Shown: one piece after another, positions 2,656 to 5,750 of the stretch
Layout of the letters: the number at the start of each line of letters is the position of its first letter
Position numbering within the stretch: position 1 is the first letter of the stretch
Assembly (NCBI GenBank): GCA_017437165.1
Contig: JAFSBS010000270.1
Span: 1-10,537, forward strand
Length of the DNA: 10,537 nt
Origin: Clostridia bacterium
Lineage (GTDB): Bacteria; Bacillota; Clostridia; Oscillospirales; Acutalibacteraceae
Reading direction: 5' to 3'
Notes under the pieces: model-generated
Seen by the model: only the letters and a program-made list of their open reading frames with translations
Told to the model about the DNA's origin: nothing
Database searches by the model: none
Made by a program: the position numbers and the translations under genes

Positions 2656-3438
2656 TTAATCACATCTATATTCTTTCATTTTTTCATATAGTTTGTCAAG
2701 TGCTTTTTTACGAATTTGTGAAACTCTTTGTTGAGAAATATCTAAAACTTCGCCTATTTCTCTCAAATTAAGATTTTCATAATAATAAAGCGAAATAACC
2801 TGTTTTTCTTTTGGGTCTAAACAATCAATTGCTTTTGCAAGTTCCCCACGAAGTTCATTTTCTAATAAGTCGTTGTCAACATGGGATTTCGAGTTATCCA
2901 TCGACTTTTCTATAACGCCTTCCCACGCTTGCTCAATCATTTCTTCAAAAGAAATAGTATCTACCGAAGCAATTTCTACTATTCTCTGGCTTAACTGTTG
3001 CTCAGTTATACCTAAATACTCAGCAAGTTCTGCATCAGTTGGCTCACGAAGAAGTTTTTGCTCTAAATATTTTCTACCCTGAGAAATTTTATTTTGTGCA
3101 TCCCACGCTCTGTTGGTAAGCCAATTCTGTTTTCTCATATATTTTAAAATTGAACCACGGATAGCAAGATAACTGAAAGTATCAAAACTTGCTCCTCTTG
3201 TCGGGTCATAACGTTCTAAACAATCTATTAAAGCAATTACACCCTGATTAAAGAAATCTTCAAAAGGTATGTTTGATAACAATACAGAACGCATACTGTA
3301 AATAGCAAGATTTACAAGATTCAAGTAATGCATAACAAGTTTATTTCTCAATTCAAGACTACCTGTTGCTTTATATTCGCTCATTACTTTTTCAGGATTT
3401 TCTAATTTCACTTCTTTAATTCCACTGAAACCGCTCAT
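2656..3438 (-). CDS. fliA: RNA polymerase sigma-28 factor of the flagellar (FliA/SigD/WhiG) class
   Basis: The gene encodes a 260-residue sigma-70-family factor that should direct RNA polymerase to late flagellar and chemotaxis promoters. Region 2 covers about residues 34-105 (including LIDCLERYDPTRGASFDTFS), region 3 about 118-160 (LLREPTDAELAEYLGI), and region 4 about 200-250, where LNLREIGEVLDISQQRVSQI is the helix-turn-helix. There is no region 1.1, as is usual for this class. I chose the ATG at 3438 over an in-frame GTG at 3450 because the GTG lies inside the ribosome site AAAAGGGGTG. The end of region 2 reads RKQNWLTNRA where most relatives have a DW-x-PR motif, a possible change in promoter recognition. 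It sits after flhA and before flgF, which suits flagellar SigD/FliA. No anti-sigma FlgM gene is in the window. A sporulation sigma factor is unlikely given the context. Confidence 0.93.
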   Translation of the reverse strand: MSGFSGIKEVKLENPEKVMSEYKATGSLELRNKLVMHYLNLVNLAIYSMRSVLLSNIPFEDFFNQGVIALIDCLERYDPTRGASFDTFSYLAIRGSILKYMRKQNWLTNRAWDAQNKISQGRKYLEQKLLREPTDAELAEYLGITEQQLSQRIVEIASVDTISFEEMIEQAWEGVIEKSMDNSKSHVDNDLLENELRGELAKAIDCLDPKEKQVISLYYYENLNLREIGEVLDISQQRVSQIRKKALDKLYEKMKEYRCD

Positions 3439-3447
3439 AATTGTTAT

Positions 3448-3457
3448 CACCCCTTTT
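3448..3457 (-). promoter_or_regulatory. Ribosome binding site deciding the sigma-28 start
   Basis: On the minus strand this reads AAAAGGGGTG, close to the anti-16S consensus, with a 9-nt spacer to the ATG at 3438. It overlaps the alternative GTG codon at 3450, which therefore cannot be the start served by this site. It lies only a few bases outside the left end of the inverted-repeat element. Confidence 0.85.
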
Positions 3458-3459
3458 CA

Positions 3460-3485
3460 TTATAATGATTGTAATTAGTCGAAAC
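3460..3485 (+). repeat. Left terminal inverted repeat of the element
   Basis: Begins TTATAATGATT and ends TTAGTCGAAAC. It pairs with the right repeat at 23 of 26 positions. The mismatches are at repeat positions 7, 12 and 15. Bases 3464-3475 can instead pair with 3556-3567 inside the element, so two exclusive folds are possible. Confidence 0.85.
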
Positions 3486-3567
3486 GCAATTACGTTTCGT
3501 AAAAGCCGATTTTATCGGCTTTTAGCAAAATTGTTTTTCATAAATACAATTTTGCATTACAGTCATT
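3464..3567. other. Cloverleaf-like unit A: basal stem with three abutting hairpins
   Basis: The basal stem pairs 3464-3475 with 3556-3567 (11 Watson-Crick pairs and one T-G). It encloses three perfect hairpins with no gaps between them. The first pairs 3480-3486 with 3493-3499 (CGAAACG/CGTTTCG, 6-nt loop). The second pairs 3500-3510 with 3514-3524 (TAAAAGCCGAT arm, 3-nt loop). The third pairs 3525-3534 with 3546-3555 (GCAAAATTGT arm, 11-nt loop). The third hairpin ends at the base next to the basal stem. Only 4 bases (3476-3479) are unpaired at the junction. This is seen directly in the sequence; its biological role is unknown. Confidence 0.75.
3512..3519 (-). promoter_or_regulatory. Candidate sigma-28 promoter -10 element upstream of the sigma-28 gene
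   Basis: The minus strand reads GCCGATAA, an exact match to the sigma-28/SigD -10 consensus, in the orientation of the sigma gene. A start about 7 nt downstream would give a leader of roughly 65-70 nt before the ATG at 3438. The -35 is imperfect: TAAA is expected about 15 nt upstream, and here there is AAAA at a 15-nt spacer or GAAA at 16 nt. The motif is also one arm of a perfect hairpin, so it may be coincidental. Confidence 0.35.
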
Positions 3568-3572
3568 GAAAG

Positions 3573-3666
3573 GATTATAGTCAAATTTTCAAAGAAAATT
3601 CGATACCAAATATATGATTTGGTATCGAAACAGTGTAATTTTACACTGTTTCGACTAACTATAATC
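3573..3666. other. Cloverleaf-like unit B, inverted relative to unit A
   Basis: The basal stem pairs 3573-3581 (GATTATAGT) with 3658-3666 perfectly. Inside are three hairpins end to end. The first pairs 3584-3590 with 3594-3600 (AATTTTC arm, AAA loop). The second pairs 3601-3611 with 3617-3627 (CGATACCAAAT arm, 5-nt loop). The third pairs 3628-3638 with 3641-3651 (AAACAGTGTAA arm); it can extend outward to 14 bp at the expense of the second. Read on the opposite strand, the unit starts with the same GATT..TTAGTCGAAAC block as unit A, so the two units look like diverged inverted copies. Confidence 0.75.
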
Positions 3667-3673
3667 GTTATAA
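3648..3673 (-). repeat. Right terminal inverted repeat of the element
   Basis: Read on the minus strand it begins TTATAACGATT and ends TTAGTCGAAAC, matching the left repeat at 23 of 26 positions. Its outer end is one base from the flhA stop codon (TAA at 3675-3677), so the element has not cut into flhA. Confidence 0.85.
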
Positions 3674-3674
3674 A

Positions 3675-5750
3675 TTACATTGCCATGAGTGTAATCGTAC
3701 CAAGAGATTGAATTTGCACTGAAGTATCAATATCATTGAATGATAAAACAGTAATATCAGGATAAAACTGGTCGAGTAACTTTTTAAAATATATTCTTAC
3801 AACAGGAGAAGTAATAATAATTGGCTCCTGAACAAGTTTTTTCATCTGGTTTATCTGCTCTGTTGTACTTGTAACAATTTTCTGAATAATATCAGGTTCA
3901 AGTGCTAAATAAGCACCACCCTCGATTTTTTTGATACTCTTTATAATCAAATCTTCAATTTCAGAATCAAGGCTTACAACCTTTAACTGCCCTGCTATTG
4001 AGAATTTGTGTGTAATTGTTCTTCTTAACGCTTGTCTTACATATTCTGTAAGCATATCGTGGTCTTTAACATTAGGCGCATAGTCCGCGAGAGTTTCTAA
4101 AATAGTTTCCATATCTAAAATCGGAATACCTTCTCTTAAAAGGTTTCTTAAAACTCTCTGGAGTTCATTAAGAGAAACAATTGCAGGAACAGTATCTTCA
4201 ACAATACTTTCGTTGCTCTGTTTAAGATTTTCAATCATTCTCTTAACTTCCTGTCTGCTGAGAAGTTCACTTGCGTGTCTTCTTATAACTTCAGACAAGT
4301 GTGTAACCATAACTGAAGTAGGGTCAATGAGTGTATAACCGGCAATTTCTGCTTTGATTTTCTTATCATCACTAATCCATTTTGCAGGCATACCAAATGC
4401 AGGTTCAACAGTTTCAATACCATCAACATCGTTTTCAGGTGTTTCTGCCGGAACAAGACCTAAATAGTGGTCAAGTAAAACTTCACCAACTGCAACGGAT
4501 TCACCTTTGAGTTTAATCTCATATTGGTTAGGATTAAGTTGTGAACTATCTTTAAGACGGATTGCAGGTATAACCATACCCATTTCGTCCGCAAAATGCT
4601 TTCTTAACATAACTACACGGTCAAGGAAGTTACCACCACTGCTCTCGTCAACGATAGGTAAAAGACTGTAACCAACCTCGACACAGATTGCATCAACGTT
4701 AAGAAGATTGTAAACATTATCAAGATTTTTGTAGTAACTTACTTCGCTTGTAACCTCTTGTGTAGTTGGTAAATCGCCAAGCTCTCCTGCATCTGCACCC
4801 ACAGGCTTTGCTTTTCTTAAAAGCATTATACCCAATGCAATAAGCATTATAGAAATCACTACCGTTTGTGGCACCGGGAAACCTATAAGTGTAAGGAATG
4901 GTAAAACCACACCCGCTATAAGTAAAACAAACGGTTGATTTGAGAATTGCTTTAAAACATCCGAGTTAAGATCTGCTTCAGATGAAGAACGAGTAACAAC
5001 AAGACCTGTTGCCATTGAAATTAAAAGTGACGGAATCTGGCTCATAAGACCATCGCCTACTGTTGAAATCGAGTAGGTCTGAATAATAGTCATAAAGTCG
5101 CCTTCTCCATTTATAAGACCTACAACAATACCACCTATTAAGTTTATCAAAGTAACGATAATAGAAATAATCGCATCACCTTTAACAAACTTGGTAGCAC
5201 CGTCCATAGCACCGAAGAAATCTGCTTCTCTCTGGATTTTAGAACGTCTTTCTCTTGCTTGTTCTTCTGTAATAAGGCCGGAACTTAAATCGGCATCAAT
5301 TGCCATTTGTTTACCCGGCAAAGCATCAAGTGTAAATCTTGCAGAAACTTCTGCAACACGTTCAGCACCTTTTGTAATAACAATAAACTGAACTAAAACT
5401 AAAATTAAGAATATAATAAGACCTACAACAATGTTACCCTGAATAACGAATTCACCGAAAGTTTTAACAACCTCACCGGCGTAACCACTGTTTGTAAGGA
5501 TTGACCTTGTAGAAGAAATGTTAAGGCTCAATCTGTAAACCGTTGTAACAAGTAACAGCGACGGGAAAATTGCGAATTCAAGTGTTTCTTTGATATACAT
5601 TGTTATAAACAAAATAACTAAAGAAATAGTAAGGTTAAGTATAAACATAAAGTCAAGAATTGCTGTAGGGAGCGGAATAATAAGAAGTGAAACAACCGCA
5701 ACCATCAAGAGTGCAACTGAACTTGTTTTAAGTCTTGATTTTATATTCAT
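3675..5750 (-). CDS. flhA: FlhA, flagellar type III export gate protein
   Basis: FlhA forms the nonameric export gate in the inner membrane and docks chaperone-substrate complexes through its cytoplasmic domain. The 691-residue length is normal. The first 310 residues hold about eight hydrophobic membrane segments. Between them is the conserved FHIPEP-family block at about 130-160 (RVAEVSARFTLDALPGKQMA) and the region AMDGATKFVKGDAI at about 181-194. Residues from about 330 to the end make the soluble domain, including DPTSVMVTHLSEVIR and the RRTITHKFS segment. The ATG follows AAGGAGG with an 8-nt spacer, and the gene begins 20 nt after flhB. The stop is one base from the right end of the 3460-3673 element. 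flhF and flhG, often next in Firmicute operons, do not follow. Confidence 0.98.
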   Translation of the reverse strand: MNIKSRLKTSSVALLMVAVVSLLIIPLPTAILDFMFILNLTISLVILFITMYIKETLEFAIFPSLLLVTTVYRLSLNISSTRSILTNSGYAGEVVKTFGEFVIQGNIVVGLIIFLILVLVQFIVITKGAERVAEVSARFTLDALPGKQMAIDADLSSGLITEEQARERRSKIQREADFFGAMDGATKFVKGDAIISIIVTLINLIGGIVVGLINGEGDFMTIIQTYSISTVGDGLMSQIPSLLISMATGLVVTRSSSEADLNSDVLKQFSNQPFVLLIAGVVLPFLTLIGFPVPQTVVISIMLIALGIMLLRKAKPVGADAGELGDLPTTQEVTSEVSYYKNLDNVYNLLNVDAICVEVGYSLLPIVDESSGGNFLDRVVMLRKHFADEMGMVIPAIRLKDSSQLNPNQYEIKLKGESVAVGEVLLDHYLGLVPAETPENDVDGIETVEPAFGMPAKWISDDKKIKAEIAGYTLIDPTSVMVTHLSEVIRRHASELLSRQEVKRMIENLKQSNESIVEDTVPAIVSLNELQRVLRNLLREGIPILDMETILETLADYAPNVKDHDMLTEYVRQALRRTITHKFSIAGQLKVVSLDSEIEDLIIKSIKKIEGGAYLALEPDIIQKIVTSTTEQINQMKKLVQEPIIITSPVVRIYFKKLLDQFYPDITVLSFNDIDTSVQIQSLGTITLMAM

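Follow-up and report, generated by a model that had tools for sequence, protein, structure and literature searches.

A putative two-lobed MITE-like element between flhA and a sigma factor gene, one copy of a dispersed gene-free family in gut Clostridia

Among the small repetitive elements described in bacteria, the Correia/NEMIS and ERIC MITEs form a stem loop by pairing of both ends, and most of them have TA termini, according to a review (PMC2229807). The element reported here resembles them, as portrayed there, in a length of roughly 100–200 bp, terminal inverted repeats, the lack of a transposase, a mainly intergenic location, stable stem loops and a target duplication. It differs in that its ends pair best with its centre, giving two lobes, and in that the duplicated bases are AT, within TTATAA-like targets. 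According to the same review, IS630-Spn1 moves RUP of Streptococcus pneumoniae, which is likewise small and intergenic with inverted-repeat ends and a 2-bp target; RUP has a TA target and an IS630 partner (PMC2229807), whereas here AT lies between symmetric ends and an IS630-type transposase exceeds its cut-off in 0 of 15 carrier genomes. The CIR repeats of Caulobacter and Brucella share the arrangement of two arms and a linker, yet the review presents them as two long inverted repeats in RNA and gives no target duplication (PMC2229807), while the present element has three hairpins per lobe and is bounded by a target duplication. REP sequences, of 20–40 bp, and BIMEs are also DNA hairpins outside genes, proposed to be moved in trans by RAYT transposases (PMC2817692, PMC3733652); our element is unlike them in being about 210 bp long and in having an AT duplication, and the distribution of Y1 genes does not follow its carriers cleanly. 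No published description of the family itself was found in the literature searched.

The window, meaning the whole stretch of 10,537 nucleotides that was analysed, comes from a Clostridia bacterium and contains a 214-bp element between flhA and the gene for a FliA/WhiG-family sigma factor (Table 1). Both genes lie on the minus strand and were recognised by matches to TIGR01398 (FlhA, 798.5 bits) and TIGR02479 (202.2 bits), in agreement with the setting given in a preliminary description of the locus. That description had also reported 26-bp terminal inverted repeats with 23 matches, TTATAA at both ends and no internal open reading frame, all of which was borne out. The terminal arms (3460–3485 and 3648–3673, 26 nt each, 162 nt apart) are complementary at 23 of 26 positions (88%), and an inverted repeat as good, with at least 100 nt between its arms, did not arise in any of 300 first-order Markov simulations of the surrounding 501 bp. 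TTATAA is read at the left end and at the right. Besides flhA, two frames of at least 25 aa touch the element (42 aa and 30 aa), both of which cross its borders. The internal hairpins, the central motif and the two-lobed anatomy were absent from the earlier account. We read the sequence, with a probability of about 70%, as a non-autonomous MITE-like mobile element that, in this lineage, entered the space between flhA and the sigma gene.

Table 1. Coordinates of the element, its parts and the flanking genes within the window
Feature	Position	Strand	Remark
Whole element	3460..3673	+	Outer TT and AA are target bases; + as drawn, flanking genes on -
AT, putative left copy of the 2-bp target duplication	3462..3463	.	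Deduced from other copies and their empty sites
Left lobe: left end, three hairpins, left centre half	3464..3567	+	End-to-centre match, DNA folding
Left lobe hairpin 1 (CGAAACG...CGTTTCG)	3480..3499	.	
Left lobe hairpin 2 (TAAAAGCCGAT...ATCGGCTTTTA)	3500..3524	.	
Left lobe hairpin 3 (GCAAAATTG...CAATTTTGC)	3525..3555	.	
Central dinucleotide GA, where the ends of the element have AT	3568..3569	.	
Right lobe: right centre half, three hairpins, right end	3570..3669	+	End-to-centre match, DNA folding
Right lobe hairpin (AATTTTCAAAGAAAATT)	3584..3600	.	
Right lobe hairpin (TTCGATACCAAAT...ATTTGGTATCGAA)	3599..3629	.	Terminator-like on the minus strand
Right lobe hairpin (TCGAAACAGTGTAA...TTACACTGTTTCGA)	3625..3654	.	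Overlaps the preceding stem by a few bases
AT, putative right copy of the target duplication	3670..3671	.	Deduced likewise
FliA/WhiG-family sigma factor gene	2656..3438	-	Downstream in operon direction
flhA	3675..5750	-	Upstream in operon direction; stop codon adjoins the right end of the element

Judged by sequence comparison, the 214 bp is one copy of a dispersed, gene-free family in related gut bacteria. The genome of origin, a draft that is 81% complete, contains one more copy, which is partial and covers 112 of the 214 bases at 95%. Multiple copies with TTATAA or TA at their borders had been named beforehand as a sign of mobility, and BLAST (E ≤ 0.001) indeed gave matches in 14 of 60 genomes, its own included and one of them (G012) weak at 7.5e-4, from 5 of 39 genera. 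Near-full copies within the genus are 89–98% identical, and those in G031 and G046 are 71–80% identical. As a rough feel for copy number, matches to an end numbered 35 in G013 and 46 in G046 when up to two mismatches were allowed, and 56 in G163 and 33 in G218 with up to three, reversed-pattern controls giving 0–3. A covariance model built from 43 copies, with search filters that lose weak matches, detected the family in 11 of the 295 genomes searched from the order (E ≤ 1e-6, own included) and in 9 of 149 genera. When one end was scanned as an exact pattern against 84,980 species genomes, 78 stretches were returned; their record titles name MAGs of Clostridia, Oscillospiraceae or Ruminococcaceae, with ruminant gut wherever a source is named. 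Plasmid and phage collections gave no match to the family, and the exact element end was not found in viral contigs. Several copies end at contig ends. With copies at many contig ends of draft genomes and hairpins put between genes, the family may affect both assembly and expression.

To describe the anatomy, 122 elements were clustered at 90% into 27 representatives. The copy in the window has three hairpins on either side of a central motif, and a strict hairpin finder recovered all six hairpins in 5 representatives and five in 13; in another 7 it saw four, and one representative each showed three and two. The central motif is YRTT-NN-AA.G, where NN is GC in 17 representatives, GA in 5, TC in 4 and TG in 1, and never AT. 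Each half of the centre matches its own end at a mean of 9.81 of 12 bases on the left and 9.81 on the right, as against 8.59 of 12 for end versus end and 7.56 and 7.48 for a centre half versus the wrong end. At bases where the two ends differ, the centre agrees with its own end in 140 of 184 cases and with the other end in 16 of 184; in a larger set (118 of the 122 elements) the corresponding counts are 619 and 38 of 772. Because the ends are thus more like their own centre halves than like each other, we conclude that the element consists of two hairpin lobes of about 100 nt set back to back, each closed by its own end and its own centre half. With DNA energies, the lobes folded apart (mean lengths 107 and 99 nt) fall short of the unconstrained optimum by at most 0.6 kcal/mol in all 27 representatives and on both strands. 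With RNA energies, the plus strand of the window element folds best as one ring and the minus strand as two lobes. The consensus fold of a MAFFT alignment lost most left-lobe hairpins, and stems were therefore counted in other ways. In the distant copies L294–L302 the layout is broadly kept with mostly different stems, L299 and L300 being less clear.

The strength of the fold brings up the possibility of a structured RNA or attenuator of the flhA-sigma operon, kept for its transcript. RNA folding is very stable relative to shuffled sequences (z -12.80 and -12.78 on the two strands), and the alignment of 43 sequences shows compensatory changes, with 117 cells altered on both sides against a shuffled mean of 56.4 (reached in 0 of 500) and 28–71 when the alignment was slid. 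For further pair types the signal is weaker, at 68 against 64.0 shuffled (46/500). One terminator-like hairpin in operon direction was also found, against 0.1 expected. However, the opposite strand has the same z, and the stems point elsewhere. Were the structure maintained at the RNA level, one strand should be enriched in G·U; the stems of the 27 representatives comprise 1315 Watson-Crick pairs and 20 mismatches, in which G·T (5) is not in excess of A·C (7). The absence of a G·T preference suggests that pairing is kept as DNA. Rfam gave ten weak matches to window positions 3300–3800, up to E 5 and each below the gathering score. Together with four relatives that have no element at the flhA-sigma junction and with copies dispersed elsewhere, these observations contradict an RNA specific to the locus, which we regard as very improbable. 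The pattern of changes in the stems fits selection on DNA hairpins, although perfect stems could also stem from mutational correction of palindromes rather than from selection.

Returning to a mobile element, the preliminary description had suggested that relatives with an empty site would support mobility, and such relatives exist. In four of them (G012, G019, G002 and G001) flhA lies beside the sigma-gene ortholog with no insert, although the gap at these empty junctions is too diverged for the original target to be read; the contig of G016 stops short of the junction. In G001 the sigma gene beside flhA (L040, G001:C36:25403-26181) is represented by two overlapping matching pieces with stops inside one, and may be broken or misassembled.

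For other copies, the flanks were joined and then searched in close relatives, and 14 sites were aligned. At five of these the empty allele consists of the joined flanks with exactly AT between them, the targets being TTATAC (L077), CTATAA (L101), GTATAA (L065), TTATAA (L071) and TTATAA (L074); three of the five (L077, L071 and L074) are situated in dispersed repeats, which means that paralogs may have been read as their empty alleles. Four further sites (L073, L083, L070 and L067) agree with an AT duplication but their flanks have drifted. The alignment of L076 is ambiguous, and L066 and L098 are uninformative. For L080 one relative stops before the site, and the other (L239) spans it but has no AT and shows a gap of 6 bases. 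L068 is anomalous, its ortholog reading element-end-like sequence in frame. At a further copy, L069, the empty site (L243) is too diverged to read. From the clean sites it follows that the insert is 206 bp long, with a 2-bp duplication of AT in TTATAA-like targets. The preliminary description had taken TTATAA as the duplicated unit, and this part of it has to be revised, since only the central AT is doubled at the empty sites and the outer bases vary: among the 77 distinct copies that could be scored out of 122 elements, TT stands on the left in 52 and AA on the right in 56. Against a 6-bp duplication of TTATAA stands the frequent difference in outer bases between the left and right sides of a single copy, and this reading was rejected. 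So was a TA duplication with symmetric ends, which would leave TTAA, whereas the empty sites keep two more bases, having AT plus the outer bases. L071 and L074 are inserted in opposite orientations in one kind of target repeat, as expected for a palindromic target.

Dispersed copies, empty sites and terminal repeats together uphold the earlier proposal of a MITE-type mobile element, and past mobility is well supported by these comparisons. The contrary pattern that had been considered, a single copy always at this locus with no empty sites, is not what the genomes contain. In the broad sense of the term the element is a MITE, by its size, the lack of a transposase gene, terminal repeats, dispersal with empty sites and a short duplication, an autonomous partner being the one feature that was looked for and not found. 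The family is a widespread small mobile DNA of gut Clostridia, with an anatomy unlike the single stem loop of classical bacterial MITEs.

A placement test was carried out on 38 of 59 full-length copies, those with enough flank and no duplicate. In the rebuilt empty alleles an open frame of at least 90 aa runs across the site in 4 of 38 (L146, L165, L179 and L198), against 636 of 760 random positions, so the family sits mostly outside genes. The copy in the flhA-sigma operon is probably tolerated. Promoter-like sites are at chance level (3 found, mean 2.7). On the basis of the terminator-like structure, hairpins of the element may reduce read-through into the sigma gene.

If an enzyme encoded elsewhere moves the element, it would recognise both lobes as DNA, the cuts would fall at the outer ends of the lobes, and the cut ends would be joined to the AT of a TTATAA-like site. 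The predicted junction of an excised circle, or of joined ends, is CGTTATAATG. The centre would be spared from cutting because it has GC, GA, TC or TG in place of AT. Should the folded lobes be the recognition signal, DNA-hairpin recognition by a recombinase would become directly testable.

A partner transposase with the same ends, which the preliminary description had envisaged, did not emerge from end-pattern scans of ten genomes (G019, G013, G046, G031, G009, G218, G163, G144, G215 and G276; G144 without any hit), in which no pair of ends within about 5 kb, as judged by eye, encloses a transposase. Two long pairs of ends in G046 were rejected as candidates. One (C17, 35503-36995) has a 411-aa AAA_14/DUF4143 ATPase between two broken copies, and the other (C22, 24780-27311) has weak ends and an 864-aa repeat protein, read by eye. 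Lone ends in G046, G031, G013, G218 and G163 were likewise set aside, those read being contig ends, partial copies or single lobes; the ORF listing for lone ends covered L304, L305 and L323. In addition, three transposase domain families were compared between 15 carriers and an equal number of genomes lacking a BLAST match. DDE_3 (IS630 type) exceeded its cut-off in 0 of 15 carriers and 0 of 15 non-carriers, DDE_Tnp_1 (IS4/IS5 type) in 1 of 15 and 6 of 15, and Y1_Tnp in 8 of 15 and 5 of 15.

These counts bear on two other explanations. The element might be a conventional MITE, derived by internal deletion from an insertion sequence of a standard DDE family and mobilised by the transposase of that family through the terminal repeats alone, the hairpins being by-products. 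Terminal inverted repeats, a short target duplication, the lack of genes and AT-rich targets are all in keeping with this, as are the short forms of 46–108 bp with both ends (9 of 103). Draft genomes often lose repeated transposase genes, and absence of the enzyme from drafts is thus weak evidence. Nevertheless, neither the DDE_3 nor the DDE_Tnp_1 counts follow the carriers, the ten scanned genomes show no like ends around a transposase, and the hairpins and the end-to-centre match are kept as the sequence changes; we consider such an origin rather unlikely. Alternatively, the element could consist of REP-like palindromes that are mobilised, as single-stranded DNA, by a RAYT-type lone Y1 (HUH) transposase. 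DNA hairpins outside genes and the slight surplus of Y1_Tnp among carriers speak for this, but a Y1 match is absent from the copy-rich G163 and from G009, with the reservation that drafts may miss genes. Insertion of the IS200/IS605 type is not known to leave a duplication, whereas AT is duplicated here, and the Y1 route seems improbable.

Beyond the reading as a MITE-like element, we tentatively raise the idea of a class of elements recognised as folded DNA, in which two cloverleaf-like lobes, end-to-centre stems and near-perfect hairpins are kept across several families of one order while most of the sequence changes, and whose insertion at the AT of TTATAA-like sites would be due to a recombinase belonging to none of the tested families (IS630, IS4/IS5 and Y1). 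In Tn3-type res sites the crossover takes place at a TTATAA core, and by analogy a serine recombinase might be suspected. This is only a lead, the string TTATAA as a Tn3-type res core not having been found in the literature searched.

Variation in length and arrangement is also apparent. The distinct elements with both ends (n=103) fall into 94 of 180–259 bp and nine short forms of 46–108 bp that retain both ends, and single-lobe forms occur in G218 (L304 and L306). Head-to-tail neighbours sharing one TTATAA were seen at six loci (L072, L085, L087, L088, L089 and L091), while a motif scan gave no mirror-image element pairs, though the flanking sequences at L146, L165 and L189 look like the initial bases of an end. 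A head-to-tail arrangement only, despite a palindromic target, hints at circular or multimeric intermediates or at repeat expansion.

Several individual sites deserve description. L071 and L074 are inserted in a dispersed palindromic repeat that contains a hairpin and TTATAA and has many matches in G012 and the other close genomes (L232–L237). The target of L077 lies in another multicopy repeat of G001, G002, G012, G016 and G019, with copies 91–97% identical (L207–L211). At L068/L203 the element-free ortholog has TATAATCGTTATAA in frame, 14 bases matching the right end of the element; insertion into end-like sequence and an old remnant are both possible. Lastly, at L070/L247 both G001 and G019 have an element at one and the same position between orthologous genes, the G019 copy being without its right part, and some insertions thus look shared between species.
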